Position numbers and translations under genes: made by a program. A model generated the notes under the pieces. That model saw nothing but the letters and a program-made list of their open reading frames with translations. It was not told the origin of the DNA and made no database searches. DNA of 64,000 bases from Ferribacterium limneticum (GTDB lineage: Bacteria; Pseudomonadota; Gammaproteobacteria; Burkholderiales; Rhodocyclaceae). Position 1 is the first letter of the stretch. Each line of letters starts with the position of its first letter. Shown here piece after piece: positions 1,187-62,247 of the stretch. The DNA is taken from positions 991,501-1,055,500 of the forward strand of contig NZ_CP075189.1 in NCBI RefSeq assembly GCF_020510565.1, written 5' to 3'.

Positions 1187-1222
1187 CCACGGTCAACCGG
1201 AAAAAACGCCCAAAAATGAAAT
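1187..1222 (+). repeat. Dispersed ~37-bp repeat, copy 1 (grpE-dnaK gap)
   Basis: Reads CCACGGTCAACCGG, six A, then CGCCCAAAAATGAAAT. It fills the part of the grpE-dnaK gap next to the grpE stop codon (1227), upstream of the dnaK promoter. It matches the copies at 11970, 44252, 58275 and 61275 in the same orientation. Confidence 0.85.
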
Positions 1223-1226
1223 GTGT

Positions 1227-1781
1227 TTATTTGCCCTTGGCGACCATGACCAGGGCCGGACGCAGAACGCGGTCGGCGATGGTGTAGCCCTTTTGCAGCA
1301 CGGTGACGACGGTGTTCGGTTCCTGCTCCGAATCGACCATGCCGATGGCCTGATGCTTGTGCGGATCGAACTTCTCGCCAGCCGGACTGACTTCGTTCAG
1401 TGCGTTCTTTTCGAAGGCGGCAACCAGTTGCTTGAGCGTCAATTCGACGCCGGCCTTGAAACTGTCAACGGTCTGTTCCGGCACGGCCAGCGCGGCTTCC
1501 AGGCTGTCCTTGACGGCCAGCAGTTCGCCGGCAAAACGCTCGACGGCGAACTTGTGCGCCTTGGAAATGTCTTCCTGAGCCCGACGGCGGATGTTTTCGC
1601 CCTCGGCCTTGGCGCGCAGCCAGGCATCGTGGTGTTCGGCAGCCAGCAATTCGAGGGCGCGGAACTGCTCCTCGATGCTCGGCAGCTTGTCGGTGTGTTC
1701 TTCGACATTTGGCTCGGCGACCGGCTCGGTCGCGGGTTCGTTACCCAGCAAGGGTTCCTGGGGGTTCTCGGTATTGCTCAT
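1227..1781 (-). CDS. grpE: Nucleotide exchange factor GrpE
   Basis: 184-residue cytoplasmic co-chaperone that drives ADP release from DnaK. It has an acidic, low-complexity N-terminus (about residues 1-35), a long helical stretch with LEA..DA.LRAKAE.EN.RRRAQ.DI, and the C-terminal beta domain with FDP..HQAI and [17 protein letters not shown], which are GrpE signatures. The ATG at 1781 has a GGGAG ribosome site about 10 bases upstream. It is directly upstream of dnaK on the same strand, and a sigma32-type promoter lies 30-57 bases before it. Length is usual for the family. Confidence 0.97.
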
Positions 1782-1810
1782 GCGTTATTCTCCCAAAATT
1801 CTGCAACGTT

Positions 1811-1838
1811 ATCTGGGGGCTGTCCCAGTGCTTTCAAG
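1811..1838 (-). promoter_or_regulatory. Sigma32 (heat-shock) promoter of grpE
   Basis: The minus strand reads CTTGAA (1838-1833), a 13-base spacer, then CCCCCAGAT (1819-1811). It matches the RpoH consensus and repeats the architecture seen before dnaK. Distance to the grpE ATG is about 30 bases. No HrcA operator (CIRCE, TTAGCACTC-N9-GAGTGCTAA) is visible here. Confidence 0.82.
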
Positions 1839-1931
1839 AGCGGCGAAGAACTATTTTTGCCTGGCAAAACTGCTGTCGTGCCGCAGCCTGCGTGCTACGA
1901 TAATTCCATGTGTCTTTTTGGTGCATCCTGA

Positions 1932-3299: not shown

Positions 3300-3324
3300 A
3301 AACAGCCTCCGCAGAGGCTGTTTT
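3299..3324. terminator. Bidirectional terminator between kinase gene and chemotaxis receptor gene
   Basis: Perfect 11-bp stem AAAACAGCCTC / GAGGCTGTTTT with loop CGCA, U-rich on both strands. It lies between two convergent genes and includes the last base of the kinase stop codon. Confidence 0.85.
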
Positions 3325-3343
3325 GCTGACCTGCTTTAAATCC

Positions 3344-4963: not shown

Positions 4964-4995
4964 GATGTCCCTCGAGTTACTGCCACCATTTTCAG

Positions 4996-6107: not shown

Positions 6108-6554
6108 TTAAGGCTGGTAAAGATGCGGCTGTATCCAGCGTTTCAGCGAGCCGAGGTCGAGCGCGCCGCTCTGACGGGCGATCTCGCGGCCATTTTTAAA
6201 GATGGCCAGGGTCGGAATGCTGCGGATATTGAAGCGGGCGGCCAGTTGCTGTTCGGCTTCGGTATCGACCTTGACCAACCGCGCGTGGGGCTCGAGGTCG
6301 ATGGCGGCCTGATGGAAATTCGGTGCCATCTGCCGGCAGGGGCCGCACCACGGCGCCCAGAAATCGACGACGACGGGGAGGTCGTTGCGCGAGATGTGAC
6401 GGTCGAAGTTGGCGGCGGTCAGTTCGGCCGGTTCGCCGTTGAACAGCGGCTGTTTGCACTGGCCGCAGTTGGGCGAATCTTTCAATTTTTGGCCAAAAAT
6501 CCGGTTGACCGTGGAACAGTGCGGACAGACGACGTGCAGGCTTTCTTCAGGCAT
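6108..6554 (-). CDS. trxC: Thioredoxin 2 (zinc-binding thioredoxin TrxC)
   Basis: 148-residue cytoplasmic protein-disulfide reductase. The N-terminal zinc ribbon has two Cys pairs (CPHC and CGQC). The thioredoxin fold follows, with active site WAPWCGPCR and cis-proline region RSIPTLAIFKNG. The ATG at 6554 is chosen because GGAG sits about 6 bases upstream; a TTG four codons earlier overlaps that site. A copy of the dispersed repeat (6480-6514) is embedded in frame between the two Cys pairs and encodes STVNRIFGQKLK; related thioredoxins have a similar AINRI stretch here. It is upstream of the EF-hand-like gene and downstream of hemH on the same strand. Confidence 0.95.
   Translation of the reverse strand: MPEESLHVVCPHCSTVNRIFGQKLKDSPNCGQCKQPLFNGEPAELTAANFDRHISRNDLPVVVDFWAPWCGPCRQMAPNFHQAAIDLEPHARLVKVDTEAEQQLAARFNIRSIPTLAIFKNGREIARQSGALDLGSLKRWIQPHLYQP
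6480..6514 (-). repeat. Dispersed repeat, copy 2 (inside trxC)
   Basis: The minus strand reads CCACGGTCAACCGG, then ATTTTTGGCCAAAAATTGAA, then A. It lies fully inside the trxC coding sequence in the linker of the zinc ribbon and keeps the frame open. The A-run after CCGG is replaced by T-rich sequence, so GGCCAAAAAT forms part of a small palindrome. Confidence 0.75.
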
Positions 6555-9374: not shown

Positions 9375-10286
9375 ATGAACAGAAGCTTTGCTTCCCTCCG
9401 CAATCCCCGGACCATCGCCCTGGTCGGCAAATACCACAGCATGGAAATTGCCGAGTCCTTGCGTCGTCTGGCGGAGTACCTTTACGAGCGCGGCGTCTCG
9501 GTTTTCATTGAGCGCGAAACCTCCGAGCACATCGGCAAGAAGGTCGATCTGTCGCGCTGGGTGACCTGCGGTTTCAACGACATAGGTGCGCATGCCGACC
9601 TCGCCATCGTGCTCGGCGGCGACGGCACCATGCTCAACGCGGCGCGCCGCCTGGCCCGTTATTGCGTGCCGCTGGTCGGCGTCAACCAGGGCCGCCTCGG
9701 CTTCATGACCGACATCGCCCGCGACGACCTGCTGACCTGCATGGACGACCTGCTCGACGGCCGCTTCGCCCAGGAAAACCGGATGCTGCTGGCTGCCGAG
9801 GTAACGCGCGACGGCAAGGAAATCGCTGAAAATCTGGCGCTCAACGATGTGGTGGTCGACAAGGGCGCCATTGGCCGCATGATCGAATTCGAGTTGTTCA
9901 TCGACGGCGAGTTCATCTACAACCTGCGTTCTGATGGCCTGATCGTTTCGACGCCAACCGGCTCGACGGCCTATTCGATGTCGGCCGGCGGGCCGATCCT
10001 GCATCCGACAACGGCCGGCATCGCCCTCGTGCCGCTCTGCCCGCATGCCCTGAGCAATCGCCCGATCATCGTCAACGACAGCGCCGACATCGAGTTGCGC
10101 ATCGCCAATGCCGACGATGCGCGTGTGCACTTCGACGGTCAGGTGACGCTCGATTTGCAGCGTGGCGATTGTGTCCGCCTGCGCCGCTCAGAACACGCCA
10201 TCTGCTTCCTGCACCCGCCGGGCTACAGCTATTTCGCCATGCTGCGCCAGAAACTGCAGTGGAGCGAGCGGCCCAAGGGAACCTGA
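9375..10286 (+). CDS. nadK: NAD kinase
   Basis: 303 residues; phosphorylates NAD to NADP. Signatures are [14 protein letters not shown] (GGDGT loop), [22 protein letters not shown], and [17 protein letters not shown] followed by SNRPIIV. The ATG at 9375 is chosen because family homology starts there ([20 protein letters not shown]); an in-frame ATG at 9357 adds six residues, and neither has a strong ribosome site. recN follows after 7 bases, so the two are probably cotranscribed, an arrangement common in betaproteobacteria. Confidence 0.96.
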
Positions 10287-10293: not shown

Positions 10294-11952
10294 ATGTTGC
10301 AACACCTGACGATTCGCGACTTTGTCATTGTCGACCGGCTGGAACTCTCGTTCCTGGCCGGTTTTGGGGCACTGACCGGTGAGACCGGTGCCGGCAAGTC
10401 GATCCTGATCGACGCCCTGGCGCTGGCCCTCGGCGAACGCGCCGATGCCGGCGTCGTCCGTTCCGGCTGCGACAAGGCCGAAGTCGCCGCCACTTTCGAT
10501 ATCACCGCCCAGCCGCAAGTCGGTGAATGGCTGCGCGCCAATGATCTTGAGGGCGACGACGAACTGCTGCTCCGCCGCGTCGTCGACACCGGCGGCCGTT
10601 CGCGTGCCTACATCAACGGCTCGCCGGCTACCGTTCAGCAAATGCGCGAAGTCGGCGAATGGCTGGTCGATATCCACGGCCAGCACGCCCACCAGTCGCT
10701 GCTGCGCGCCGAAGCCCAGCGCACGCTGCTCGACAGCCATGCCGGCCTGAGCGGGCAGGCACGCGAAGTCGCTGCCGCTTGGAAAATCTGGCGCGATGCC
10801 GAGCAACTGCTGCGCGTCGCCAGCGAAGGCGCCGACGTCCTGCAGCGTGAGCGTGAACAGTTGCAGTGGCAGATCGGCGAACTCGACGCCCTGGCCTTTG
10901 GCGACGACGAATGGGCGACGCTCGATGTCGAACACCGCCGCCTCGGCCACGCCGCCAGCCTGATCGAGGGCGCGCAATACGCGCTCGCTATCCTTTCCGA
11001 CGACGATGCCGCCTGCGAACGCCAGATCGACGGCGTTGCCACGCGGCTCGCCAATCTGGCCGAATACGATCCCGAATTGGCCGAAGTTGCCGCGTTGATC
11101 GGCTCAGTGCAGGCCGAATTGTCCGACGCCGTGTCCACCCTGCGCCGCTACGCCGACCGGGCCGATCTCGACCCGACTCGTCTGGCCCAGGTCGAGCGCC
11201 GGATGGACGCGGTGATGAGCCATTCCCGAAAATATCGTGTCCAGCCCCCCGAATTACCGGGTTTGTTGGTTGGTTGGCGGCAGCGACTCTCCGCGCTTGA
11301 TGAATCAGCCGATCTGGCAGCGCTGGAAACGAAGGTCGCCGCAGCGCGCAAGGATTATCTGGCCCAGGCCGAAAAACTATCGGCTGGCCGCAAAAAAGCG
11401 GCAACCGAGATGGGCAAGGCGGTCAGCGAAATCATGCGCCAGCTGGCACTATCCTCCGGCCGTTTCGAGGTTGCCCTGGTGCCGGTTGCCGATGGTGCGG
11501 TTTATGGCCTAGAACAAATCGAATTCCGCATCGGCGGCCTCGCCGGCAACGAGGCCAAGCCCATGGCCAAGGTCGCCTCCGGCGGCGAACTGTCGCGCAT
11601 CAGCCTGGCGATACAAGTACTCACTTCGCGCTCAGCCAGCGTCCCGACGCTGATTTTCGACGAAGTCGATGTCGGCATCGGCGGCGGCGTCGCCGAAATC
11701 GTCGGTCGCCTGCTGCGCGAACTGGGCAGCGAACGCCAGGTTCTCTGCGTCACCCACCTGCCGCAAGTCGCGGCGCAGGCCAACTGGCAATGGCAAGTCA
11801 GCAAGGCGACGCGCGACGGCGTCACGCTGAGCGCCATCCAGCCGCTCGACGACAACGGCCGAATCCAGGAAGTTGCCCGCATGCTTGGCGGCGTCGAAAT
11901 TTCCGCCATCACGCTGCAGCACGCTCGCGAACTACTCCATTTGCCGGCTTGA
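10294..11952 (+). CDS. recN: DNA repair protein RecN (SMC-like ATPase)
   Basis: 552 residues, cytoplasmic, acts in double-strand break repair. Walker A is GETGAGKSILIDAL (about residues 30-43). The signature motif region has KVASGGELSRISLAIQ, and Walker B is TLIFDEVDVGIGG. The middle (about 150-400) is long coiled coil. The start at 10294 gives MLQHLTIRDFVIVDRLEL, the usual N-terminus; the frame is open further upstream inside nadK, but that is not family sequence. No LexA-type CTGT-N8-ACAG box was seen nearby. The 3' end is followed within 6 bases by a long hairpin made partly from the dispersed repeat. Confidence 0.96.
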   Translation: MLQHLTIRDFVIVDRLELSFLAGFGALTGETGAGKSILIDALALALGERADAGVVRSGCDKAEVAATFDITAQPQVGEWLRANDLEGDDELLLRRVVDTGGRSRAYINGSPATVQQMREVGEWLVDIHGQHAHQSLLRAEAQRTLLDSHAGLSGQAREVAAAWKIWRDAEQLLRVASEGADVLQREREQLQWQIGELDALAFGDDEWATLDVEHRRLGHAASLIEGAQYALAILSDDDAACERQIDGVATRLANLAEYDPELAEVAALIGSVQAELSDAVSTLRRYADRADLDPTRLAQVERRMDAVMSHSRKYRVQPPELPGLLVGWRQRLSALDESADLAALETKVAAARKDYLAQAEKLSAGRKKAATEMGKAVSEIMRQLALSSGRFEVALVPVADGAVYGLEQIEFRIGGLAGNEAKPMAKVASGGELSRISLAIQVLTSRSASVPTLIFDEVDVGIGGGVAEIVGRLLRELGSERQVLCVTHLPQVAAQANWQWQVSKATRDGVTLSAIQPLDDNGRIQEVARMLGGVEISAITLQHARELLHLPA

Positions 11953-11957: not shown

Positions 11958-11990
11958 TTTTTTCCGGTTGCTACGGTCAACCGGAAAAAA
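11958..11990. terminator. Terminator-like hairpin at recN 3' end, built from a repeat copy
   Basis: Perfect 13-bp stem TTTTTTCCGGTTG / CAACCGGAAAAAA with loop CTACGGT. A U-run is available on either strand. It lies between the convergent genes recN and the Mn-exporter gene. The right arm is the core of the dispersed repeat; the left arm is an inverted copy of that core. Confidence 0.7.
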
Positions 11991-12006
11991 CAGCCAAAAT
12001 TCAAAT
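11970..12006 (+). repeat. Dispersed repeat, copy 3 (recN / Mn-exporter gap)
   Basis: Reads GCTACGGTCAACCGG, six A, CAGCCAAAATTCAAAT. It overlaps the last bases of the minus-strand Mn-exporter gene, whose TGA stop (12003-12001) lies within it. It is the only copy with an added inverted arm. Confidence 0.85.
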
Positions 12007-12606
12007 AATGCCGAGCAGGCGCAGCACGGCCAATAGCGCCAGCAACAGGAAAAATACGCCGCTGATCCGGTGAATCCAATGCAGCGGCAGGCGATTGAGC
12101 CAGCGCCGGCCGGCCACGACGCCGAGTATCGATGTGCAGGCCAGGGCCAGCGTGGCGCCGACCCAGGTGGCCAGAGCATCGGCGGTGCTGCCCATGCCGG
12201 CGACGGCGATCTGCGTCTTGTCGCCGAATTCGGCGAGAAAGATCATCAGGAAAGTGGTTGCGAAGATGCCGTGGCCCGGTTTCTCGGTGATGTCTTCATC
12301 GTCATCATCTTCCTCGAAGCGCAGGGCGCTAATGCCGAAGACGGCGAAGAGGACTGCAACGGCGGCCGTGACGACCCATTCCGGCAGCCAGGCGGCAATT
12401 GCCGCACCAAACAGTACGGCGAGCAGGTTGAGGAAGGCAAAGGCGGCGACGGCGCCAAGAACGATGGGCAGGCCGCGATGCCGGGCGGCGAGCGTCATGC
12501 AGACGAGCTGGCTCTTGTCGCCAAATTCGGCGAGGGCGATCAGCAGGAAGGTGGTGCCGGCCGAAGACAGCCAGGTGCCTGGCACCACTGCCGCGATTTC
12601 AGTCAT
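12001..12606 (-). CDS. TMEM165/GDT1-family cation transporter (MneA/MntX-like Mn2+ exporter)
   Basis: 201 residues, about six membrane helices in two homologous halves. Each half carries the family motif EFGDKSQL or EFGDKTQI, which forms the cation site. The loop between the halves is strongly acidic (FEEDDDDEDITEK). In proteobacteria this family exports Mn2+. It is 17 bases downstream of fur on the same strand, so it is probably cotranscribed with it. The stop codon lies inside a copy of the dispersed repeat. Specificity is inferred from the family. Confidence 0.9.
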   Translation of the reverse strand: MTEIAAVVPGTWLSSAGTTFLLIALAEFGDKSQLVCMTLAARHRGLPIVLGAVAAFAFLNLLAVLFGAAIAAWLPEWVVTAAVAVLFAVFGISALRFEEDDDDEDITEKPGHGIFATTFLMIFLAEFGDKTQIAVAGMGSTADALATWVGATLALACTSILGVVAGRRWLNRLPLHWIHRISGVFFLLLALLAVLRLLGII

Positions 12607-18324: not shown

Positions 18325-21531
<3,207 letters not shown>

Positions 21532-22539: not shown

Positions 22540-22905
22540 TCAGCCCTGGAAGGATCGCTTGCTTTTGCGCGGAGCGGCAGAAGCGGGGCGTTTTGATTTT
22601 GGGGCTTTTTTCGGGTTGACCGTGGCATTGTCGGTGGGTGACGGGCGATAGACCACCAGAAGCTTGCCGATGTGCTGGACTGGAGCGGCATCCAGTTGGG
22701 CGCAGATTTGATCGTAATAGGCCAGACGATTTTCCCGGCTGTCACCATAAACGCGAATCTTGATCAGTTCGTGAGCGTTCAGGTTCATATTGATTTCCTT
22801 TAGAACGGCCTCAGTCAGGCCGTTTTCGGCAATCGAAACAACCGGATTCAGGTCGTGGGCCTTGGCGCGCAGTTCGCGTCGCTGGGCAGATGATATTTGC
22901 AGCAT
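22540..22905 (-). CDS. yhbY: YhbY-family ribosome-assembly RNA-binding protein (CRM domain)
   Basis: 121 residues. The CRM domain (about 1-95) shows [30 protein letters not shown] and ELIKIRVYG, with [10 protein letters not shown] near its end; it binds pre-50S rRNA. The C-terminal tail (about 96-121) is Lys/Pro/Ser-rich and longer than E. coli YhbY. Much of the tail ([14 protein letters not shown]) is encoded by a copy of the dispersed repeat. Divergent from rlmE with a 31-bp gap. Confidence 0.93.
22592..22627 (-). repeat. Dispersed repeat, copy 4 (inside yhbY)
   Basis: Minus strand reads TGCCACGGTCAACCCG, six A, GCCCCAAAATCAAAA. It encodes the basic C-terminal tail of YhbY, outside the conserved CRM domain. 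Confidence 0.75.
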
Positions 22906-25546: not shown

Positions 25547-26383
25547 ATGACAACACTGCACTGTGGCCGTTTCAGGCTTTCGCTGGCTCGTCCCTTGTTG
25601 ATGGGGATCGTCAATCTGACGCCGGATTCGTTTTCCGGTGATGGACTGGTCGGTAATGTTGAGCAGGCCATCAAACATGCCCGTCAGCAATTTGAGGCAG
25701 GCGCGGATATTCTTGATATCGGTGCCGAGTCATCCCGCCCGGGCGCGATTCCGACCTCTGAAGAGGATGAGTTGCGGCGTCTGTTACCAGTTCTGAAAGA
25801 AATTACCGACTGGGGTGTTCCCATCTCGGTGGATACCTACAAGCCGGCTGTTATGCGTGCCGCACTTGAGGCAGGGGCGACGATGATCAATGACATCACC
25901 GGCATGACCCAACCTGAAGCCTTGTCGGTTGTTGCGCAGAGCGATTGCGCCGTTTGTGTCATGCACATGCAGGGCGAGCCCGGTACGATGCAGCAAACGC
26001 CGCAGTATCGTGATGTCGTCACGGAGGTGAGATCGTTTTTGCTGGCAGCTGTAGAGCGTTGCAGGAAGGTTGGTATTGACGATGGTCGAATTGTGGTCGA
26101 TCCAGGGTTTGGATTCGGCAAGACAGTGGACCACAATTTGGCCCTTTTTTCGGCGTTGACCGTAGCAGGCGTCGGTGATCTTCCAATGTTGGTCGGAGTT
26201 TCCAGAAAATCCATGCTGGGCGCAATTACCGGCCGACCTGTTGGTGAGCGACAGGCTGCCAGTGTGGCGGCCGCGCTGCTGGCTGCGCAAAAAGGTGCGA
26301 AAATACTACGTGTGCATGACGTGGCGGCAACCAGGGATGCTTTGACGGTCTGGGCTGCAATAGAACAGAGAGGTCGGGAATGA
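25547..26383 (+). CDS. folP: Dihydropteroate synthase
   Basis: 278 residues; joins p-aminobenzoate to dihydropterin pyrophosphate in folate synthesis, the sulfonamide target. Signatures: [87 protein letters not shown], and [11 protein letters not shown]. The start codon follows the ftsH terminator T-run by five bases and no Shine-Dalgarno is visible. A copy of the dispersed repeat overlaps codons for [12 protein letters not shown]. The last four bases overlap glmM (ATGA). Confidence 0.97.
26135..26166 (-). repeat. Dispersed repeat, copy 5 (inside folP)
   Basis: Minus strand reads GCTACGGTCAACGCCG, six A, GGGCCAAATT. About three mismatches to the consensus over roughly 29 bases. It overlaps the conserved HNLAL segment of FolP, so part of the match could be chance plus protein constraint; the CTACGGTCAAC half is the stronger evidence. 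Confidence 0.6.
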
Positions 26384-43635: not shown

Positions 43636-43667
43636 AAACGCCCCGCCAGTCGGGGCGTTTGTTTTTG
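43636..43667 (+). terminator. Terminator of the nuo operon
   Basis: Perfect 10-bp stem AAACGCCCCG / CGGGGCGTTT with loop CCAGT, followed by GTTTTTG. It ends about 12 bases before the nudF start. Confidence 0.92.
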
Positions 43668-43678
43668 TGGAGTTTGAA

Positions 43679-44221: not shown

Positions 44222-44251
44222 ACCCGAGTTTTGAGCTGGTTCGCAGCGAAT

Positions 44252-44288
44252 GCTACGGTCAACCGGAAAATACGGCCAAAATTGAAAT
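44252..44288 (+). repeat. Dispersed repeat, copy 6 (after nudF)
   Basis: Reads GCTACGGTCAACCGG, AAAATACGG, CCAAAATTGAAAT, the copy closest to the consensus end. The flank to the left, AGCGAATGCT, can pair with itself and resembles the flank of copy 7. Confidence 0.88.
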
Positions 44289-47267: not shown

Positions 47268-47326
47268 CCAAGGCTCCTCTACAAAATTCGGATTTTCTGG
47301 GTTATTAATTTTCGAATGTTGCAAAG

Positions 47327-47475: not shown

Positions 47476-47562
47476 TCAGAGCGCCAAAAGTGTCTGCGCG
47501 TGGTGCGCCATCATCCACTCTTAATTGGTCGGAATGACCGGCACATCGATGCTGCTGTTGCT
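47476..47562 (-). pseudogene. Remnant of the ackA 3' end
   Basis: Translating the minus strand gives SNSSIDVPVIPTN, a stop (TAA), then EWMMAHHAQTLLAL and TGA. The intact ackA ends SAGNSSVDVLVIPTN, E, EWMMAHHAQTLLAL. So about 29 codons of the acetate kinase C-terminus are duplicated here, with one Glu codon (GAA) changed to TAA. Similarity ends just right of 47562. The remnant lies just beyond the stop of the hypothetical gene at 47588, so that gene is flanked by two copies of the ackA 3' end. Confidence 0.88.
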
Positions 47563-48758: not shown

Positions 48759-49940
48759 TTACAGCGCCAGCAACGTCTGCGCGTGGTGCGCCATCATCCA
48801 CTCTTCGTTGGTCGGAATGACCAGCACATCGACGCTGCTGTTGCCGGCGCTGATCACGATGTCGTGACGCGCATTGGCTTCCGGGTTGAGGCGGATGCCC
48901 AGCCATTCGGACTGCAGGCAGACACGGCGGCGAACCTCGGCAGCGTGCTCGCCGATGCCGCCGGTGAATACCAGCGCGTCGATGCCGCCGGAGGCCGCGG
49001 CGAGCGAGCCGAGTTCGCGGGCGATGCGGTAGCAGAACAGGTCGACTGCCTCCTGGGCTTCCGGCTTGTTGCTCGAGAGCAGGGTGCGCATGTCCTGACT
49101 GATGCCGGAAACGCCGAGCAGGCCGGATTCCTTGTAGAGCATCTTGGTCATGTCCTTGACCGACAGACCCTTGGTTTCCATGAGGTGCAGGATGACGCCC
49201 GGGTCGAGGTTGCCACAGCGCGTGCCCATGAGCAGGCCATCGATGGTCGAGAAACCGAGGGTTGTCGCCACGCATTTGCGATTGACCATGGCTGCCATGC
49301 TGGCGCCATTGCCGAGGTGGGCGACGACGACGCGGCCGTTGGCGCGGTGCGAGTGCTGGGGCAGGGCGCGGGCGATGAATTCGTAGGACAGGCCGTGGAA
49401 GCCGTAGCGCTTGATGCCTTCGGCCGACAGGGCGCGCGGCAGGCCGAAGGTCTGGGCGACGTCGGGCTGGCTGCGGTGGAAGGCGGTATCGAAACAGGCG
49501 ATTTGCGGCACGCCGGGGAGCAGCGCCTGCAGGGCGCGAATGCCGGCGACGTTGTGCGGTTCGTGCAGCGGAGCGAGCGGAATGAAACTGGTCAGGTGGC
49601 CGAGTACGGTGTCGTCGACGATGGTCGGCTGCGAGTAACGCTCGCCGCCATGCACGACGCGATGGCCGACGGCGACGATCTGCCAGCCGGCGTGCGTCGC
49701 CATGAACCACTTGAGCAACGCGTCGAAAGCCTGGTCGTGGCTGACCTGCTCGCCAGCGATCATCTGGTCGGCGATTTTTTCGCCGGCCTTGTCCTTGGCG
49801 ACCATTTTCGTCGCGTTGGTGCCGATGCCGTCAATCTGGCCGGAGACTTCGGCTTCCGGGGAAATCGGGTGGGCGAGGGAGAAAAGGGCGAACTTGATGG
49901 ATGACGATCCAGCATTGATCGTCAGGATGCCTTGCTTCAT
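48759..49940 (-). CDS. ackA: Acetate (acyl) kinase
   Basis: 393 residues, cytoplasmic; interconverts acetyl phosphate and ADP with acetate and ATP. Signatures: [65 protein letters not shown], and FTGGIGEHAAEVR. Propionate may also be used. Its ATG directly abuts the pta stop codon. The 3' end exists a second time as a decayed fragment at 47476-47562. Confidence 0.97.
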   Translation of the reverse strand: MKQGILTINAGSSSIKFALFSLAHPISPEAEVSGQIDGIGTNATKMVAKDKAGEKIADQMIAGEQVSHDQAFDALLKWFMATHAGWQIVAVGHRVVHGGERYSQPTIVDDTVLGHLTSFIPLAPLHEPHNVAGIRALQALLPGVPQIACFDTAFHRSQPDVAQTFGLPRALSAEGIKRYGFHGLSYEFIARALPQHSHRANGRVVVAHLGNGASMAAMVNRKCVATTLGFSTIDGLLMGTRCGNLDPGVILHLMETKGLSVKDMTKMLYKESGLLGVSGISQDMRTLLSSNKPEAQEAVDLFCYRIARELGSLAAASGGIDALVFTGGIGEHAAEVRRRVCLQSEWLGIRLNPEANARHDIVISAGNSSVDVLVIPTNEEWMMAHHAQTLLAL

Positions 49941-51380: not shown

Positions 51381-51869
51381 TCAGGCCGGTCGTGGCCTGC
51401 TGCGCCGGTCGCATGCCGCATTGGCCGGCGGAATGTCGATATCCAGCTCGGGGCGCAGTTGCGACAACTGATTGACCACCCAATGGTTGGCCTCGCCGGT
51501 GAATTCCCGCGAAATCAGCGGCGCGCCAGTATAGGCCTCGACAAAAAGGGCGACGGCGGCCGAGCGACTGACGCCATATTCGCAATGGACCAGCATCGAC
51601 ACAGCATCCGGGGCGTTGTGCACGTCTTGGACGAAGGTGGATATCTGGCGGGCCATCCGGTAATCAAACAGGCCGGGCATCGGCGCCGGCAGGTATTCGT
51701 CAGCCGGTACGGCGTCGTAGAAGGCGAGGCGCAGGACGTGCTCGAACTGGGCGTGCAGGTTGGCTTCCGGGGTGCCCGGGTCGGTAATCGAAATGACCGC
51801 CATCGACGGCTTGCCGATCAGCGATTCGGCCAATTCGCGCGAGGCGAAATAAACTTTGCTGATGGTCAT
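51381..51869 (-). CDS. Dual-specificity/tyrosine phosphatase-like protein
   Basis: 162 residues, cytoplasmic. The only strong signature is VHCEYGVSRSAAVALF, the HCX5R phosphatase P-loop (Cys and Arg both present), about residues 94-109. A general-acid Asp could lie in the preceding loop. Start (51869) overlaps the stop of the kinase-like gene by four bases, so translation is coupled. Substrate unknown. The C-terminal tail is basic (CDRRSRPRPA). It is 21 bases before pta on the same strand. Confidence 0.8.
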   Translation of the reverse strand: MTISKVYFASRELAESLIGKPSMAVISITDPGTPEANLHAQFEHVLRLAFYDAVPADEYLPAPMPGLFDYRMARQISTFVQDVHNAPDAVSMLVHCEYGVSRSAAVALFVEAYTGAPLISREFTGEANHWVVNQLSQLRPELDIDIPPANAACDRRSRPRPA

Positions 51870-52441
51870 TCCATGAACACCGGATCGGAGAAAACGAGGG
51901 TGCCGTCCTTGCGCATCATGAGGTTGTCGGCCTTGATGAGGTCAGGCAGGGCGCCGTATTCGGTCGAAAAATCTTCGACTGCCTTGAGCGATTCCTTGAG
52001 CGCGTCGGTCCACCCCATCGGCGTGACGACGAGGTGGTGCAGCGCAATACGGCCCATGTCCTGGGCCAGATTGCGCCACATCATGCAGGCGTCGAAATAC
52101 GAGGTGGACAGCTTGGTCGCCACTTCCGCCGCGTCGCCGGCAACGGGCAGCGGATAGAGTCGCTCGACTTCGACGACATGAAACGGAAAGCCGCGGCTGG
52201 AGCGGCCAACGGTACCGTGATCGGCAAAGACGACCGGGAAATGGTTGCCGGTCGGACGATCATCTGCCGTGTAGTAGGCATAGTCGGTGGGCGAAGAGAG
52301 CACCTTGTAGACGCGTTCCTGGCCATCGACGGTGTCGGCTTCGAGGACGATGGTGCTTTCGCCGCGGCCGATTTCCTGGCGTCCGCGCAACAGCGGGTGA
52401 TCCGGTACGGGATCGGGGAGTAGTCCGTCAATGTCAGGCAT
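51866..52441 (-). CDS. Protein-kinase-fold-like protein (function unknown)
   Basis: 191 residues. IGRGESTIVLEADTVDGQ followed by RVYKVL resembles a kinase glycine loop and ATP-anchoring Lys (about residues 23-50). Near the C-terminus, LPDLIKADNLMMRKDGTLVF then SDPVF resembles a catalytic-loop Asp/Asn and a DFG-like Asp. The lobes are short and the C-terminal lobe is truncated compared with Hanks kinases, so it may be a minimal or atypical kinase. ATG at 52441 has GGAG seven bases upstream; an open frame extends 16 codons further. Translation is coupled to the phosphatase-like gene. No homologue recognised with certainty. Confidence 0.65.
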   Translation of the reverse strand: MPDIDGLLPDPVPDHPLLRGRQEIGRGESTIVLEADTVDGQERVYKVLSSPTDYAYYTADDRPTGNHFPVVFADHGTVGRSSRGFPFHVVEVERLYPLPVAGDAAEVATKLSTSYFDACMMWRNLAQDMGRIALHHLVVTPMGWTDALKESLKAVEDFSTEYGALPDLIKADNLMMRKDGTLVFSDPVFME

Positions 52442-52493
52442 CAGATTCTCCGAAATCGTTTCAAACTGGCGGGAGTTTGTCCCCGCCAATTTG

Positions 52494-52525
52494 AAATTTA
52501 GCCCTTTTTTCCGGTTGACCGTAGC
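52494..52525 (-). repeat. Dispersed repeat, copy 7 (fabI to kinase-like gap)
   Basis: Minus strand reads GCTACGGTCAACCGG, six A, GGGCTAAATTT. Flanked by GTAGCGATTGCTAC, a short self-pairing stretch similar to the flank of copy 6. It sits 18 bases after the fabI stop. Confidence 0.85.
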
Positions 52526-52543
52526 AATCGCTACAAAATGGCC

Positions 52544-53353
52544 TCAGGCGACGATATGGGCGCCAGCGTCGACGTAGATCGTCTGGCCAGTCATGCCGGA
52601 CGAACCCGGCGTGCACAGGAAGGCGGTCAGGGCGCCGACTTCGTCAATGGTCACGGTGCGGCCGAGCGGTGCCTTGGCGGCATCGTTTTCGAGCAGGGTG
52701 TTGAAATTGGCGATGCCGGAAGCGGCACGGGTCATGATCGGGCCCGGCGACACGGCAAAGACGCGGATGCCCTTGGGGCCGAGGTCGTAGGCCATGTAGC
52801 GGACGGCCGATTCAAGCGCCGCCTTGATTATGCCCATCACGCCGTAGTTGCGCACGACGCGCTCGGCGCCGAGGTAGGACATGGTGATCAGCGAACCGCC
52901 GTGCGCCATCAGCGGTTCGACCGCCTTGGCCATGCGCAGGAAGCTGTGGCAGGAAATGTTCATGGCCGAGTCGAAGCCGGCTTCGGTGGTGTCGATGACG
53001 CGGCCGTGCAGGTCGTCGCCATTGCAGAAGGCCATCGAGTGGATGGCGAAGTCGAGTTCGCCGAACTCGTCGCCGCACTGCTTGATGGCTGCTTCAAGGC
53101 TGCCTTCCTCGGTCACGTCGAGCTTGAGGAAGAGCTTGGCGCCGAGGGCTTCGGCCAGCGGCTGGGTGTATTTGGCCGTCTTGTCGTTCTGGTAGGTCAG
53201 GGCAATTTCGCCGCCCAGAGCGCGAATGGCCTTGGCGACGGCGAAGGCGATCGACTTGTCGTTGGCGACACCGGTAATCAGGCCTTTTTTGCCAGCCAGG
53301 GGCAACAGGGTGTTCATGCTGGCCAGGGGGGATTGTTCGTTTATTGTGTTCAT
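52544..53353 (-). CDS. fabI: Enoyl-[acyl-carrier-protein] reductase (FabI type)
   Basis: 269 residues; NADH-dependent last step of fatty-acid elongation, SDR fold. GLITGVANDKSIAFAVAKAI is the FabI nucleotide motif, the catalytic Tyr/Lys are in SYLGAERVVRNYGVMGIIKAALE (about 155-177), and GIRVFAVSPGPIMTRAASGI is the substrate loop. ATG at 53353 with GAGGAAG about 8 bases upstream; the frame is open further. It begins a minus-strand run ending at ackA and is divergent from hoxF. Whether this is the main reductase or a second copy cannot be told here. Confidence 0.92.
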   Translation of the reverse strand: MNTINEQSPLASMNTLLPLAGKKGLITGVANDKSIAFAVAKAIRALGGEIALTYQNDKTAKYTQPLAEALGAKLFLKLDVTEEGSLEAAIKQCGDEFGELDFAIHSMAFCNGDDLHGRVIDTTEAGFDSAMNISCHSFLRMAKAVEPLMAHGGSLITMSYLGAERVVRNYGVMGIIKAALESAVRYMAYDLGPKGIRVFAVSPGPIMTRAASGIANFNTLLENDAAKAPLGRTVTIDEVGALTAFLCTPGSSGMTGQTIYVDAGAHIVA

Positions 53354-53464
53354 GCTGTTCTTCCTCGAAGAGTCGATCAGGGGCGTATTGCGTTGCACCA
53401 TTCGTAATCGTCTATCGCCAATTGATGGTGCTTTATCTATGTTGCGACGCAGCACCATTGTTGC

Positions 53465-56744: not shown

Positions 56745-58208
56745 ATGACCTACCAACTAGAAACCGCCGCCCACCCCGAAACCCTGCGCCGCGTGGCGAT
56801 TGACCCGGTGTCCCGGGTCGAGGGCCACGGCAAGGTGACCATCCTGCTCGACGACCAGAACAAGGTGCATCAGGTGCGCCTGCACATCGTCGAGTTTCGT
56901 GGCTTTGAAAAATTCATCCAGGGCCGGCCGTACTGGGAAGTGCCGGTCATGGTCCAGCGCCTGTGCGGCATCTGCCCGGTGTCGCACCATCTGGCGGCCT
57001 CGAAGGCGCTCGATGTGATCGTCGGGGCGAAAAAGCTCACGGCGACGGCCGAGAAGATGCGCCGCCTGATGCACTACGGCCAGATGCTGCAATCGCATGC
57101 GCTGCATTTCTTCCACCTCTGTTCGCCCGACCTGCTGTTCGGCTTCGACAGCGACGTGACCAAGCGCAATATTGTCGGCGTCGCCATGGCCCATCCAGAA
57201 ACGGCCAAGCGCGGCGTGCTGCTGCGCAGGTTTGGGCAGGAAGTGATCCGGGTTACGGCCGGCAAGCGCGTCCATGGCACCGGCGCCATCCCGGGCGGGG
57301 TCAACAAGGCGCTGACGGTGGCCGAGCGCGATGAGCTACTCAAGGACATCTATCACATCGTCCAGTGGTCGCGCGACGCGGTACAGCTAATCCAGAAGGT
57401 GCACACGCAGGACCCCGGGCTGTACAACAGCTTCGGCATTTTCCGCTCGAATTTCATGTCCATCGTCGGCCACAACGGTGATCTCGACTTCTATCACGGC
57501 ACGCTGCGCGCCCGCGACGACAACGGCAAGATCATCTTCGACCACGTCGATTACCAGCAATACAACCAGTACATCGAGGAAGAAGTGCGGCCGTGGAGCT
57601 ACATGAAATTCCCGTACTTCAAGTCGATCGGCAAGGAACACGGCTGGTACAAGGTCGGCCCGCTGGCCCGGGTGCAGAACTGCTGCCAGATTTCGACGCC
57701 CTTCGCCGAACACGAGCGCAAGGAATTCGTCGATTACGCCGGCGGCTCGCCCATGCATGCGCCGCTCGCCTATCACTGGACGCGGATGATCGAGATGCTG
57801 CACGCCGCCGAGGTGATCAAGGAATTGCTGCACGACGACGACCTGCTCGGCAGCGACCTGATGGTCCAGGGCGAGCGCCAGTCGGAAGGCGTCGGTGTCA
57901 TCGAGGCGCCGCGCGGCACGCTGTTCCACCACTACCGCGTCGATGAAAACGACCTGATCACGATGGCCAACCTGATCGTGTCGACGACCAACAACAACCA
58001 GGCGATGAACGAAGCCATCCGCCACGTTGCCCGGCGCTACCTGCACGGCCACGAAGTGACTGAAGGCCTGCTCAATCACATCGAAGTCGCCATCCGCGCC
58101 TTCGACCCCTGCCTGTCCTGCGCCACGCACGCGCTCGGCAAGATGCCGCTGGAAGTCGAGCTGGTCGATCCGGAAGGGCGCATCGTCCATTCGCTGAGCC
58201 GTTCGTGA
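56745..58208 (+). CDS. hoxH: NAD-reducing hydrogenase, large subunit HoxH
   Basis: 487 residues; holds the Ni-Fe site. L1 motif RLCGICPVSHH (about 65-75) and L2 motif DPCLSCATH (about 454-462), giving the four Cys ligands. The tail after the L2 His, about 25 residues ending VHSLSRS, is the extension removed by HoxW after nickel insertion. Also SRVEGHGKVTILLDD near the N-terminus. Its last four bases overlap hoxW. Confidence 0.97.
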   Translation: MTYQLETAAHPETLRRVAIDPVSRVEGHGKVTILLDDQNKVHQVRLHIVEFRGFEKFIQGRPYWEVPVMVQRLCGICPVSHHLAASKALDVIVGAKKLTATAEKMRRLMHYGQMLQSHALHFFHLCSPDLLFGFDSDVTKRNIVGVAMAHPETAKRGVLLRRFGQEVIRVTAGKRVHGTGAIPGGVNKALTVAERDELLKDIYHIVQWSRDAVQLIQKVHTQDPGLYNSFGIFRSNFMSIVGHNGDLDFYHGTLRARDDNGKIIFDHVDYQQYNQYIEEEVRPWSYMKFPYFKSIGKEHGWYKVGPLARVQNCCQISTPFAEHERKEFVDYAGGSPMHAPLAYHWTRMIEMLHAAEVIKELLHDDDLLGSDLMVQGERQSEGVGVIEAPRGTLFHHYRVDENDLITMANLIVSTTNNNQAMNEAIRHVARRYLHGHEVTEGLLNHIEVAIRAFDPCLSCATHALGKMPLEVELVDPEGRIVHSLSRS

Positions 58209-58693
58209 GCGCACCCGTCGTCATCTTCGCCGTCGGCAACCCTAGCCGCGGCGACGACGCCCTCGGGCCGGAATGCTACGGTCAACTGGAAAAATGGCTC
58301 AAAAATGAAATGCTGGCCGACCAGTTCGAGCTGATCGAGGATTTCCAGCTCCAGATCGAACACGCCCTCGACCTGCAAGGCCGGCAACTCGCCCTGTTCA
58401 TCGACGCCGGCGCCAACACGCCGGGGCCATTCACCTTCGCGCGCATCGCACCGGCCACTGGCGCTGCCTATACGACGCACGAACTGCCGCCCGAAGCGGT
58501 GCTCCAGGTTTATCTCCAGACCGAAGGCCAGGAACCACCACCGGCCTTCGTGCTGTGCATTCGCGGTGAGCAGTTTGAGCTGGGAGAGCCGTTATCGGCC
58601 GCAGCGAGCCGCCATCTTGAAGCAGGCTTCAGCCTGTTAGTCAGTCTTTGCCGGCAACCCTCCGTGGCGGCCTGGGAGCAGGCGGCAAACTGA
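58205..58693 (+). CDS. hoxW: Hydrogenase maturation protease HoxW
   Basis: 162 residues; nickel-dependent endopeptidase of the HybD/HycI family that trims HoxH. VGNPSRGDDALGP, IEDFQLQIEHALDL and LFIDAGAN carry the conserved acidic metal ligands. A copy of the dispersed repeat encodes CYGQLEKWLKNEM (about 24-36), a region poorly conserved in the family. GTG start overlapping hoxH by four bases (GTGA). Confidence 0.93.
   Translation: MSAPVVIFAVGNPSRGDDALGPECYGQLEKWLKNEMLADQFELIEDFQLQIEHALDLQGRQLALFIDAGANTPGPFTFARIAPATGAAYTTHELPPEAVLQVYLQTEGQEPPPAFVLCIRGEQFELGEPLSAAASRHLEAGFSLLVSLCRQPSVAAWEQAAN
58275..58311 (+). repeat. Dispersed repeat, copy 8 (inside hoxW)
   Basis: Reads GCTACGGTCAACTGG, AAAAATGGCTC, AAAAATGAAAT. 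It lies in the hoxW coding region in the frame giving YGQ, and does not break it. The end AAAAATGAAAT equals that of copy 1. Confidence 0.78.
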
Positions 58694-59467: not shown

Positions 59468-59575
59468 CTGGCCGTCAACGGCATCAGGGTTTGTTGATAT
59501 GCATCATGGGCAGCGTCGGCCTTGAAGTGGAAAATTCATTCGACTTGTTGCTTTATGGAAGCGTTTCAAGTCGAC

Positions 59576-60289
59576 ATGTTTTTCCTCAGATACACATTCG
59601 CGGCGACTTTGGTCGCCGCCTTTTTTGGTGCGGCTCAGGCGGCTGAAACCGCCGAGCGGCAGTTCGTTGCCATCGCCGAACTCCCGGCGGAAAGCCTCAA
59701 CGCCCGGCTAGAGCAGATCGTCGAAGTCGATGTCGATCTGACGGCCAGCGGCAGCCTAGCCGTCAGCGTCGTTGGCGAGCGGATCGACGTTCTCTACCGC
59801 ATGGCCTTCAACCAGATTGCCGAAGGCTGGAGCTGGCGACCGCTGGCCGATCCGGCGGTCGACGACTATTACCAGTACAAATTCCTGCCTTTGCAGTCGG
59901 TGTCCGTCGAGCGCGGCCAGTACGAGCATGAAGACAAGATTGGCACTCCGCAGCTGATGAAGGTCAGCTGGCGTTACGACTATTTCCTGGCTTTCGCCAA
60001 TCTCTACGATTTCTATCCGCGCAGCGTCGATGACGACGCCGGGTTTTCGGCCAATCTGTCGGCAGCGTTGGCCGGGCATGTCGGCATGCGGGCGAAGGCA
60101 CGGCTGATCGAACCGGTGATCAGTGAAAGCACGACTTTCTGGAAGGCGACCTATGGCAAGCCGACCGATTTCACGCTCAAAAAGCGCTACCTGGTTGGCA
60201 AGCTGGAAGAAGTGGCGTTCATCGATACCGCCAGCGGCGAAGTGCTCTGCCGCATCGGGCCGGGACAGGGGCGCTGCACCGGCCGTTGA
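59576..60289 (+). CDS. Hypothetical secreted protein
   Basis: 237 residues. The ATG at 59576 gives a clean signal peptide (MFFLRYTFAATLVAAFFGAAQA, 22 residues; cleavage after AQA), so the mature protein is probably periplasmic. The frame is open further upstream from a TTG. The mature part is beta-rich with aromatic stretches (WSWRPLADPAVDDYYQYKF and WRYDYFLAFANLYDFYP). It ends in a short Cys pair, CRIGPGQGRC, that could form a disulfide. No family recognised. Confidence 0.72.
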   Translation: MFFLRYTFAATLVAAFFGAAQAAETAERQFVAIAELPAESLNARLEQIVEVDVDLTASGSLAVSVVGERIDVLYRMAFNQIAEGWSWRPLADPAVDDYYQYKFLPLQSVSVERGQYEHEDKIGTPQLMKVSWRYDYFLAFANLYDFYPRSVDDDAGFSANLSAALAGHVGMRAKARLIEPVISESTTFWKATYGKPTDFTLKKRYLVGKLEEVAFIDTASGEVLCRIGPGQGRCTGR

Positions 60290-60307
60290 GCCCTGCTTAG
60301 GGCGCGT

Positions 60308-60751
60308 TCAGCGATAGACCAGCACCGGCACCTTGGAGTGGGTCAGTACCTTGTTGGTTTCGCTGCCGAGCAGGAAGCCGCTGATGCCGCGGCGACCGTG
60401 GGAGGCCATGAAAATCAGGTCGCAGCCGGCTTTTTCGGCGGCTTCGATGATCGCTTCGTAGGGAATGTCGCTCGTGGCGGCGGCCGTGCTGCACTGGACG
60501 CCGGCTTCGGCGCACAGTTTCTCGACTTCGCCGAGATATTCACGCGCCTGCTGGTCGGCCAGCTCTGCGAATTTTTCCGGGGTCGTCGGGTCGATCAGGG
60601 CGCCTTCGCCGAAATAAGCGATGGGATATTCCGGCTTGGCGAAAAACACCGTAATCCGGGCGCCGGCTTCCTTGGCGAAGGAAACGGCACGGGCTGCCGT
60701 GGCGCGGGAGAGTTCTGAGCCATCGGTCGGAACGAAAATATGCTGGAACAT
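60308..60751 (-). CDS. Universal stress protein, UspA family
   Basis: 147-residue single-domain Usp. N-terminal HIFVPTDGSELS and C-terminal ASHGRRGISGFLLGSETNKVL with the ATP-binding G-2X-G-9X-G(S/T) pattern, ending SKVPVLVYR. Such proteins bind ATP and help in starvation or redox stress. AGGAGGT lies upstream of the ATG. Convergent with the secreted protein gene, divergent from the beta-CASP gene. Confidence 0.93.
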   Translation of the reverse strand: MFQHIFVPTDGSELSRATAARAVSFAKEAGARITVFFAKPEYPIAYFGEGALIDPTTPEKFAELADQQAREYLGEVEKLCAEAGVQCSTAAATSDIPYEAIIEAAEKAGCDLIFMASHGRRGISGFLLGSETNKVLTHSKVPVLVYR

Positions 60752-60834
60752 GCGTAACCTCCTGAAATGGTCTGCTGGCGTTGCATTCAGCCTTATTGAG
60801 GTTCATGCTACGCCAAGTCGGGAGGAATGAAAAC

Positions 60835-62247
60835 ATGCGTCTCGGGTTTCTCGGAGCGGCTGGTGAAGTCACCGGTTCCTGCACGTTGGTGGAAGCGGGC
60901 GGCGTCCGTTTTCTGGTCGATTGCGGCATGTTTCAGGGCGGCCCCGAAGCGCGGCAAAAGAACCAGAAAGCGCTCAATTTCGGCTTCGATGTCCGGCAAA
61001 TCGATTTCGTCCTGCTCACCCACGCCCACATCGATCATTCAGGGTTGTTGCCGCGGCTTTCCATGCTCGGTTATCGCGGGCCGGTCTATGCCACGCAGGC
61101 GACAATCGATCTGCTTGAAGTTCTGCTGCCGGACAGCGCTCACATCCAGGAAAAGGAAGCCGAGTGGCAATTGCGCCATCGGCGGCGTGGCGGCAAGAGC
61201 GAGCAGGGCATCCCGGCACCGCTCTATTCCGTGGCCCAGGCCCTGGCCTCGCTCAAACTGCTGCGCCCCGTTTCCTACGGTCAACCGGAAAAAACGGCCG
61301 AAAACGTAAGCGTTGTTTTCCGCGATGCCGGCCACATTCTCGGCTCGGCCTCGCTCGAGGTGACCGTCAGCGGCGAAGGCCGACAGCGCCGGCTGGTCTT
61401 TTCCGGCGATCTCGGCATGCCCGACCGGCCGGTGCTCTGTGACCCGGCGCCGTCGCCCACCGAGGCCGATGTGCTGCTCATCGAATCGACCTACGGCGAC
61501 CGCCTGCACCGTTCGCTGCCGGAAACCGAAGACGAAATCGTCGCCGCCTTCGACCGTACCCGGGCCGCCAACGGCAACCTGATCATCCCGGCCTTCGCCG
61601 TCGGGCGGACGCAGGAAATCATCTACATGCTGGCCGACCTTGTGCGTCGCAAGCGGCTGGCGCCGCTCAAGGTCTACGTTGATTCGCCGATGGCCAACTC
61701 GGCAACGCGTATCACGCTGGCCAACCAGAACCTGCTCGACCCCGAAACGCGCGACCTGATCGCCTGGCTCAAGGCGCATCCCAAGCAGATGAGCCTCGAA
61801 CTGGTCGCCGATGTCGAGCGCTCCATCCAGCTCAACGACATACGTAGCGGTGCCGTGATCATTTCGGCCAGCGGCATGTGCGAGGCCGGGCGGATCAAGT
61901 ACCACCTGCGCGAAAACCTGCCGCGCAGCGAATGCACGATCCTGATTGCCGGCTTCCAGGCGGCCGGGACACTAGGTCGGCGTCTGGTCGATGGGGCGAA
62001 ACTGGTTCATATTTTCGGCCAGCCGGTGCCGGTTCGGGCCCGCATTTACACCGTCGGCGGCCTGTCGGCCCATGCCGATCAGGCGGCCTTGCTCAAGTGG
62101 CTGGGTGGTTTTCACAAGCCGCCGGCCAATACCTTCGTCGTGCATGGCGAGGCCGGCGCTTCGGCCAATTTCAAGCGCGCCATCGAAGAAAAACTCGGCT
62201 GGTCGAATGTCCGCTTGCCGCTCCCTGGCGAGTTCGTATCGCTGTAA
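60835..62247 (+). CDS. MBL-fold beta-CASP RNA-processing nuclease (RNase J/CPSF73-like)
   Basis: 470 residues, cytoplasmic. Metallo-beta-lactamase motif THAHIDHSG (HxHxDH), AGHILGSASLEV with a further metal His, and FSGDLGMPDRP with the metal Asp. Beta-CASP part with STYGDR, PAFAVGRTQEII, YVDSPMANSATRI, SASGMCEAGRI and VGGLSAHADQAALLKWLGG. Probably a zinc-dependent RNA exo/endonuclease. ATG at 60835 is taken because GGAGG lies upstream. A repeat copy is inside the coding sequence. Confidence 0.92.
   Translation: MRLGFLGAAGEVTGSCTLVEAGGVRFLVDCGMFQGGPEARQKNQKALNFGFDVRQIDFVLLTHAHIDHSGLLPRLSMLGYRGPVYATQATIDLLEVLLPDSAHIQEKEAEWQLRHRRRGGKSEQGIPAPLYSVAQALASLKLLRPVSYGQPEKTAENVSVVFRDAGHILGSASLEVTVSGEGRQRRLVFSGDLGMPDRPVLCDPAPSPTEADVLLIESTYGDRLHRSLPETEDEIVAAFDRTRAANGNLIIPAFAVGRTQEIIYMLADLVRRKRLAPLKVYVDSPMANSATRITLANQNLLDPETRDLIAWLKAHPKQMSLELVADVERSIQLNDIRSGAVIISASGMCEAGRIKYHLRENLPRSECTILIAGFQAAGTLGRRLVDGAKLVHIFGQPVPVRARIYTVGGLSAHADQAALLKWLGGFHKPPANTFVVHGEAGASANFKRAIEEKLGWSNVRLPLPGEFVSL
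61275..61305 (+). repeat. Dispersed repeat, copy 9 (inside the beta-CASP nuclease gene)
   Basis: Reads CCTACGGTCAACCGG, six A, CGGCCGAAAA. It encodes SYGQPEKTAEN, a loop just before the conserved AGHILGSA motif. The 3' end of the repeat is lost. Confidence 0.8.

Follow-up and report, generated by a model that had tools for sequence, protein, structure and literature searches.

The dispersed repeat of the 64,000-nucleotide stretch of DNA analysed here (the window) probably serves an Azonexus-group bacterium as its DNA uptake signal, as judged from its sequence and distribution. Among the three readings offered in the earlier note (small mobile element, uptake signal, binding site of a chromosome-organising protein), the uptake signal is the best supported, namely by the anatomy of the motif, its restriction to one genus, its origin by substitution and its dialects. 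With somewhat less assurance, we also favour a third, independent origin of sequence-specific uptake, located in Rhodocyclales and converged on the mechanical design of the Haemophilus uptake signal sequence (USS), with at least four dialects within one genus, one of them palindromic, a shift visible among orthologous copies and several events of loss or gain. DNA uptake signals are known only from Pasteurellaceae and Neisseriaceae according to the available portion of a 2025 paper, and no DNA uptake label was reported for the host family in the literature found. If the reading is true, a third group with an uptake signal would mean that the trait evolves repeatedly. The bacteria concerned live in the environment and are not known to depend on animals.

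All nine repeat copies described earlier, in both orientations, were recovered with scores of 36-60 for a 41-bp matrix (Table 1), and five of them do lie inside genes (trxC, a yhbY homologue, folP, a small hydrogenase-adjacent gene and a beta-CASP hydrolase gene), the remaining four being intergenic. The repeat is real but longer than the approximately 37 bp first assigned to it, with a consensus of about 41 bp; likewise, the copies behind the first estimate of about one per 7 kb are genuine, but the genome sample is denser, at about one per 4-5 kb. For the gene of copy 8, a Pfam scan gave no match; the gene presumably resembles a hydrogenase maturation protease. Four weaker matrix matches in the window (19733, 21017, 38366 and 59848; scores 12-26) were excluded from the family, and the one at 21017 also scores 12-14 in the motif-poor genomes G152 and G338.

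Table 1. Copies of the repeat in the window, with their genomic setting and the score of the 41-bp matrix.
Copy	Position	Strand	Setting	Score
1	1182..1222	+	intergenic, adjoins grpE 3' end (GrpE by Pfam)	57.7
2	6479..6519	-	inside trxC (Thioredoxin and Zn_ribbon_Thio2, Pfam), codes STVNRIFGQKLKD	42.3
3	11966..12006	+	between convergent genes 10294-11952 (+) and 12001-12606 (-), reaching into the final bases of the latter	59.2
4	22590..22630	-	yhbY homologue, 3' part (CRS1_YhbY, Pfam)	47.7
5	26130..26170	-	inside folP (25547-26383, +; Pterin_bind, Pfam), antisense	36.0
6	44248..44288	+	between convergent genes 43667-44221 (+, NUDIX) and 44370-47324 (-)	60.3
7	52489..52529	-	intergenic, between 51866-52489 (-) and 52544-53401 (-)	59.5
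8	58271..58311	+	inside small gene 58205-58693 (+), adjoining the NiFe hydrogenase large subunit	53.0
9	61270..61310	+	inside beta-CASP metallo-hydrolase gene (Beta-Casp and RMMBL, Pfam), codes SYGQPEKTAENV	49.5

Allowing at most one mismatch, ACGGTCAACCGGAAAA was found 534 times in the own genome (273 and 261 copies on the two strands) and on neither strand of the control. The general pattern CGGTCRAC-N4-WWW-N8-WWWW gave 780 matches against 2 in the control. The matrix puts the genome total at approximately 870-1010 copies, extrapolated from 464 kb; it was trained on the same stretches, and the best score of the reversed sequence over 464 kb was 8.0. The copy number is thus clearly above chance (534 vs 0) and conservation extends past the shared 10-mer (41-bp logo), the two points on which the earlier note had made the family depend. 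The 10-mer core alone, with one mismatch, is a weak indicator, occurring 13 times in the window against 6.8 expected. The earlier note was right to set the repeat apart from CRISPR repeats and from typical REPs.

In the 41-bp consensus the core is followed by two A/T tracts at a spacing of one helical turn, and the logo has unconstrained columns within. Runs of five A/T show peaks at gaps of 3-5 and 14-15 past the core (G000, G187, G339, G337, G359 and G319). The Pasteurellaceae USS, as described in the available text of PMC1626085, likewise has a short core and a one-sided pair of A/T-rich segments separated by roughly one helical turn, and it shares with the motif its occurrence on both strands, substitution origin and clade dialects. 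The same text places about 65% of H. influenzae USS in genes, the figure also obtained here, and sets the A/T segment centres of the Hin-type USS 12 positions apart, compared with 11 in the motif. The USS inner core is GCGG according to the available portion of the 2025 paper, and is shared by those dialects that include GCGGT. A phased A/T design common to both would suggest that the uptake machine requires it for mechanical reasons. The motif is, however, not a USS proper: its core is CGGTCRAC instead of AAGTGCGGT or ACAAGCGGT, its host belongs to Rhodocyclales and not to Pasteurellaceae, and, unlike in the USS, several dialects, one palindromic, exist inside one genus. Its density of about one per 4-5 kb is also below the approximately one per kb given for USS and for the Neisseriaceae DUS in the source text available. 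With the DUS, as far as the available text of PMC3630211 describes it, the motif shares a host in Betaproteobacteria, several dialects and a constant inner core, and the overlapping dyad pairs of the Simonsiella DUS are a further likeness; in contrast to the motif with its A/T tracts, the DUS is described in the 2025 paper as an uninterrupted stretch of at most about 13 nt that lacks A/T segments, and its sequence is another.

Of 113 sampled sites, 73 lie in called genes, which together with folP, overlooked by the gene caller, amounts to about 65%, compared with 85% of bases called coding; the caller also includes a doubtful ORF (L011:1577-1888). The motif is over-represented in noncoding DNA, yet many copies are genic. 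At in-gene copies, net length change was 0 in 38 of 46 alignments (30 copies), with a maximum of 9 nt, and 0 in 23 of 30 alignments of copies scoring at least 30. For another fifteen pairs of query and relative in called genes, no alignment spanned the copy, and they do not enter the 46; one copy among them gave an apparent +41/+45, but just past a stop codon. Copy 9 aligned to G337 and G152 without gaps, and at the site of the trxC copy, where a conserved residue is altered, 17 of 30 genus genomes have VNRIP, VNRLP or INRIP at equal length. Coding copies, for which this mode of origin is demonstrated, arose by substitution, with codons replaced without added length. The same length test had been applied to the origin of the USS by substitution, according to the available text of PMC1626085.

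That copies were instead inserted by a small mobile element (MITE or REP-like), at least between genes, is highly improbable as an account of the family. Its strong consensus would fit such an element (35 exact copies of the 16-mer against 27 singly mismatched ones in the genome sample), as would three non-genic copies (1182, L011:1600 and L028:12969) within 41-69-nt segments missing from relatives. An excess of perfect over singly mismatched copies is also a characteristic of uptake signals. The coding copies, however, refute it for genes by their unchanged length, and they mostly use one frame per orientation (30/44 and 20/28); the unconstrained logo columns speak against it as well, and intergenic length varies even without the motif. 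The segment of copy 1 is lacking in G337, G152 and G338 and present in G359 and G319, and 4 of 8 intergenic spanning alignments differ by 14-53 nt. The mobile element of the earlier note therefore fails for coding copies but may apply to some intergenic ones, because relatives lack an approximately motif-sized segment there. REP/BIME and MITE repeats, which are inserted copies, also occur as hundreds of dispersed short copies; unlike them, the coding copies here are not insertions.

Sites outside called genes are enriched between convergent genes, where 16 of 40 fall in 11.4 of 65 kb. This enrichment, an inverted stem-loop pair (L028) and the terminator-like hairpins among the palindromic copies of G187 would suit a signal acting at the RNA level, such as a transcription terminator or a promoter, but most sites are single, genic and in both orientations (45 in the same direction as the gene, 28 opposite), and uptake signals are known to be used secondarily, in pairs, as terminators according to the available text of PMC12616744. 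An RNA-level signal as the basis of the family is thus very hard to credit.

The general pattern lies far above background in one genus only (Azonexus group, Rhodocyclales). There, 42 of 76 genomes hold 50-819 matches, the remaining 34 being low-count; among 297 sampled family genomes, the 12 that belong to the genus have 5-795 matches, against 0-6 in the 285 from other genera. In same-dialect relatives, conservation of the motif exceeds that of its 60-nt flanks, with values in G359 of 0.937 vs 0.902 in genes and 0.927 vs 0.883 between genes, and likewise in G012 and G319; in the motif-poor G152 it is lower than that of the flanks (0.610 vs 0.782). In three stretches of recently acquired DNA the motif was scarce, a feature equally to be expected of other slowly spreading chromosomal motifs: the matrix scan of two 20-kb stretches (L022 and L023), one bearing ParM-like and integrase genes, gave zero copies, and none lies inside a 34-kb element splitting comEC in G002, the flanks of which hold seven and four. 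Separately, one IMG/VR contig carries one exact motif match.

Sites in the sampled stretches were distributed over both strands (51 + / 62 -) with neither strand nor GC-skew bias, and the general-pattern matches of the whole genome were split 392/388. A polar replication motif of the KOPS/Chi type was rejected, since replichore strand bias was absent from the sampled stretches. Inter-site gaps had a CV of 0.79 and counts a variance/mean of 0.89 per 10 kb, with gap lengths limited by the 20-kb stretches. Abundant, dispersed sites, helically phased A/T tracts favouring bending, and dialects that could track a protein are also compatible with a site that is bound inside the cell by a protein for chromosome organisation or segregation and co-evolves with it. 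Such sites usually have far fewer copies. We regard this reading as unlikely, though deserving more weight than the mobile element: besides the missing strand and skew bias, about two thirds of the copies are genic, the one in trxC even at the cost of a conserved residue, each site would need separate selection, dialect shift included, and high counts are confined to part of one genus. The chromosome-organising site of the earlier note has thus lost ground while keeping a small chance.

For the uptake signal, components of an uptake machinery are present. A comEC domain was detected in the own genome, in 71 of 76 genus genomes and in 51 of the 51 that are at least 90% complete, and 15 matches to pilins or pseudopilins occur in the own genome. 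The core CGGTCRAC would be bound by a DNA receptor that sits on the cell surface as part of the type IV pilus/competence machinery, and the A/T tracts may let the helix bend or open while DNA is pulled in. Motif-bearing DNA would be taken up preferentially and then recombine back; because this preference would over-represent chance-improved near-matches among donors, copies would build up by substitution (molecular drive), genic and intergenic alike. A change in receptor specificity would let the copies drift jointly to a new dialect. comEC does not simply track motif count, because the Competence-domain match is unbroken (at least 255 of 270 positions) in 26 of the 34 genomes with low counts and split in the motif-rich G002; that the motif was lost through loss of comEC is not supported. 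Between the two pilins compared, FimT and a short PilA paralogue, no receptor following the dialect was found. FimT was rejected as sole dialect determinant, the same-dialect genomes G359, G360, G349 and G002 giving best E-values of only 1e-7 to 5e-9 compared with 6e-82 in G344. The PilA paralogue was rejected as receptor, its full-length matches occurring, among the matches listed, in high- and low-count genomes alike, and among these the high-count G319, G349 and G012 had none.

All dialects keep the inner CGGTC constant and follow phylogeny in a tree of 30 genomes. In the window, the core takes the form ACGGTCAACCGG. ACGGTCGACCGTAAAA has 248, 224 and 117 matches in G187, G011 and G280 (symmetric sites counted twice), GCGGTCGAC with the distal A/T tract is found in G337 and G339, and AATGCTACGGTC, usually followed by GG, in G361 and G357. 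The latter two genomes, which belong to the 34 with low counts, are nested in a clade of otherwise motif-rich genomes of the same tree. Of the covered sites orthologous to the window copies (7 in G361 and 5 in G357), AATGCTACGGT is present at 6 and 4, respectively, and CGGTCAAC at none; the shift is incomplete, since CGGTCGGC occurs at only 3 and 2 of them. Because dialects differ between species and orthologous copies moved together to a new consensus in this nested clade, a trans-acting reader is proposed as the best explanation. Since the genus naturally comprises similar genomes that differ in dialect or have lost the motif, two questions become testable in it: by which protein the signal is read, and by what route a genome switches dialect. 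Decayed ghosts, as considered for the trxC copy in G361, were rejected, since the sites show another dialect, and early refined motifs of G339 (tandem repeats) and of G152, G334 and G338 (too few sites) were discarded as artefacts.

The nine copies of a dispersed repeat that the earlier note had reported in the window proved to be real and to be a small sample of a family spread over the whole genome. On the single contig of 4,150,051 bp, of which the window covers 991501-1055500, the 16-mer ACGGTCAACCGGAAAA was found 273 times in forward and 261 times in reverse orientation with at most one mismatch, far from the chance number given 0 matches for its reversed control at the same tolerance. 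A logo of 72 copies, derived from a 464-kb sample made up of the window plus twenty 20-kb stretches, revealed conservation beyond the 10-mer shared by the window copies, extending over ~41 bp (GATTGCYACGGTCAACCGGAAAAAANGGCCAAAWTTGAAAT) with background level on either side. A matrix trained on the same 464 kb that it scored yielded 113 sites at a score of ≥12 and 97 at ≥20, with no site at ≥10 for its reversed control, which extrapolates to about 870-1010 copies in the genome; the counts by 16-mer and by general pattern are independent of this matrix.

In the motif, AAAAAA, a GC step, AAAWTT and GAAAT come in this order after the core ACGGTCAACCGG, and the flanks vary between species. To assess A/T phasing, every CGGTCRAC in a genome's sample was aligned without further selection and runs of five A/T were scored. 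These runs peaked at gaps of 3-5 and 14-15 bases past the core in G000, apparently the source genome, and in the genus relatives G187, G339, G337, G359 and G319; the peaks were weak in G338 and were not seen in G334 or G152 in the same alignment. The Haemophilus uptake signal sequence (USS), which according to PMC1626085 carries 3' of its core two A/T-rich segments centred 12 positions apart, has the same plan as the motif.

Among genomes representing GTDB species, a 30-base form of the motif occurred in at least 120 stretches; the matches listed came from Azonexus, Azonexaceae, Dechloromonas and Rhodocyclaceae, and from MAGs labelled just Betaproteobacteria, Gammaproteobacteria or Proteobacteria. 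We infer that the motif-bearing genus is the Azonexus group. Searching related genomes, as the earlier note had proposed, with the general pattern CGGTCRAC-N4-WWW-N8-WWWW gave 5-795 matches per genome in the 12 sampled members of this genus, against 0-6 in each of 285 genomes sampled from 67 other genera of the family. Across 76 genus genomes, the motif was abundant in 42 (50-819 matches) and 34 had 0-43, at least two of the latter (G361, G357) having a dialect, or variant form of the motif, that this pattern misses. A single viral contig, L307 (IMGVR_UViG_3300033565_000011), which may include host sequence, contained the exact 20-base pattern (9694-9713).

Called genes held 73 of the 113 sites, with 85% of bases called coding and folP missed by gene calling; 16 of the 40 sites outside them lay between convergent genes. 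At 4379-4453 of L028, one of the 20-kb samples, two copies face each other with starts 34 nt apart, an inverted pair of stem-loop form and a candidate terminator. Within genes, each orientation favoured one frame (30/44 same-strand, 20/28 antisense sites), and across the sampled stretches the copies showed no preference for either strand and no relation to GC skew. Samples L022, with genes for a ParM-like protein, an integrase and a RES protein, and L023, with catabolic-type genes, contained 0 copies each against about five expected in each; L014, likewise low in GC, contained two. The comEC gene of relative G002 is split by a ~34-kb mobile element encoding a serine recombinase, a tyrosine (phage-type) integrase, a type ISP restriction enzyme, DNA polymerase B and a DUF4917 protein. 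This element contained 0 copies, with seven in the preceding 24 kb and four in the following 16 kb.

Split matches to the ComEC Competence domain in genus genomes
Feature	Genome	Contig	Position (kb)	Fetched stretches
Split comEC Competence-domain match, ~33 kb apart	G002	33	~109.6-143.3	L316, L317
Split comEC Competence-domain match, ~33 kb apart	G365	1	~2218.7-2251.2	L319-L321

Window synteny is kept in five relatives, and coding copies could be aligned with motif-less orthologues. For trxC, 10 of 30 genomes, the source genome among them, encode VNRIF with the motif; G361 and G372 encode VNRIF by CGGTCAAT, G217 has VNRVL, and the remaining 17, including the motif-rich G005 and G014, have VNRIP, VNRLP or INRIP at equal length. 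Using fetched stretches of G187, G338, G334, G152, G339 and G337, 46 alignments were obtained over 30 of 74 in-gene sites. Net length change was 0 in 38, the others giving +3 (three), +9, +8, +1, -3 and -6; for sites scoring ≥30 it was 0 in 23 of 30 alignments (21 sites), with the same maximum. A gap fell within the motif in 14 of the 46, and mean identity was 0.67 in the motif against 0.81 in the flanks, as expected if motif stretches were rewritten. Insertions might escape an analysis limited to spanning alignments, so the 15 further query-relative pairs that lacked one in called genes were inspected as well. The copy at L011:1600, where 45 and 41 nt are missing in two relatives, is probably intergenic: the ORF called there is doubtful, and the copy lies 20 nt past its stop codon. 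The alignments indicate that coding copies arise by substitution and that insertion is not their origin, which, for these copies, speaks against the mobile element suggested earlier; Redfield and colleagues (PMC1626085) reached the same conclusion for the USS by the same test, with 24% of alignments gapped. Between genes, all eight spanning alignments were gapped (net -1 to +53), and copies 1182 and L028:12969 lie inside 58-69-nt segments missing in relatives. Intergenic copies may have been inserted, which such gaps do not show, since intergenic length varies freely.

ACGGTCAACCGGAAAA reached at least 170 copies in 11 of the 76 genus genomes, the next having 85, and ACGGTCGACCGTAAAA gave 248 matches in G187, 224 in G011 and 117 in G280, symmetric sites being counted twice; several in G187 were symmetric, with A/T tracts on either side. 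GCGGTCGAC was favoured in G337 and G339, and AATGCTACGGTC, then mostly GG, was the dialect of G361 and G357. In a tree of the trxC region from 30 of the 76 genomes, G361, G357 and G372 were nested in a 14-genome clade (support 99/98) together with 11 motif-rich genomes, from which we infer the direction of the dialect shift in G361 and G357. G361 was covered at the orthologues of seven of the nine window copies, of which six had AATGCTACGGT, three CGGTCGGC and none CGGTCAAC; G357 was covered at five, of which four had AATGCTACGGTC and two CGGTCGGC, with no motif at trxC. CGGTCAAC was present at the window-orthologous sites of G000, G359 and G012, bar the G012 folP site, which had no motif, and G319 had CGGTCGAC at one site. 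The shift in G361 and G357 is incomplete; scattered orthologous sites moving to one new consensus imply that something must read them all. A binding site of an intracellular protein, akin to the chromosome-organising protein considered earlier, appears an improbable identity for the motif.

From its structure, origin in genes, distribution and dialects, and from the host machinery, the motif is probably a DNA uptake signal, the remaining proposal of the earlier note. The ComEC Competence domain was found in 71 of the 76 genus genomes and in all 51 that are ≥90% complete, and 15 matches to pilins or pseudopilins came from the source genome. Two candidate readers of the motif, FimT and a short PilA-like pilin, did not correspond to the dialects. 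According to PMC12616744, a 2025 paper, such signals are known from just two families, Pasteurellaceae and Neisseriaceae. In open-licence papers, no report of uptake sequences in Rhodocyclaceae, Dechloromonas or Rhodocyclales was found; among the matches listed, one paper, on Neisseria, appeared for Betaproteobacteria. In two broader sets of papers, the 10 listed of 4,569 and the 10 listed of 219 contained nothing on this group, and none of the latter 10 had Dechloromonas.

Internally repeated stretches, which dominated the k-mer counts, were masked (L224 and L226 of G339, L183 and L185 of G187), as were the repeated k-mers of G337, mainly in L238. The latter, repeated ~90 times and including TCCCCGCGAACG and GGATAGGCCC, resembled a CRISPR array. 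In the window, the 82-nt segments 47480-47561 and 48763-48844, 1283 nt apart, were 90% identical.
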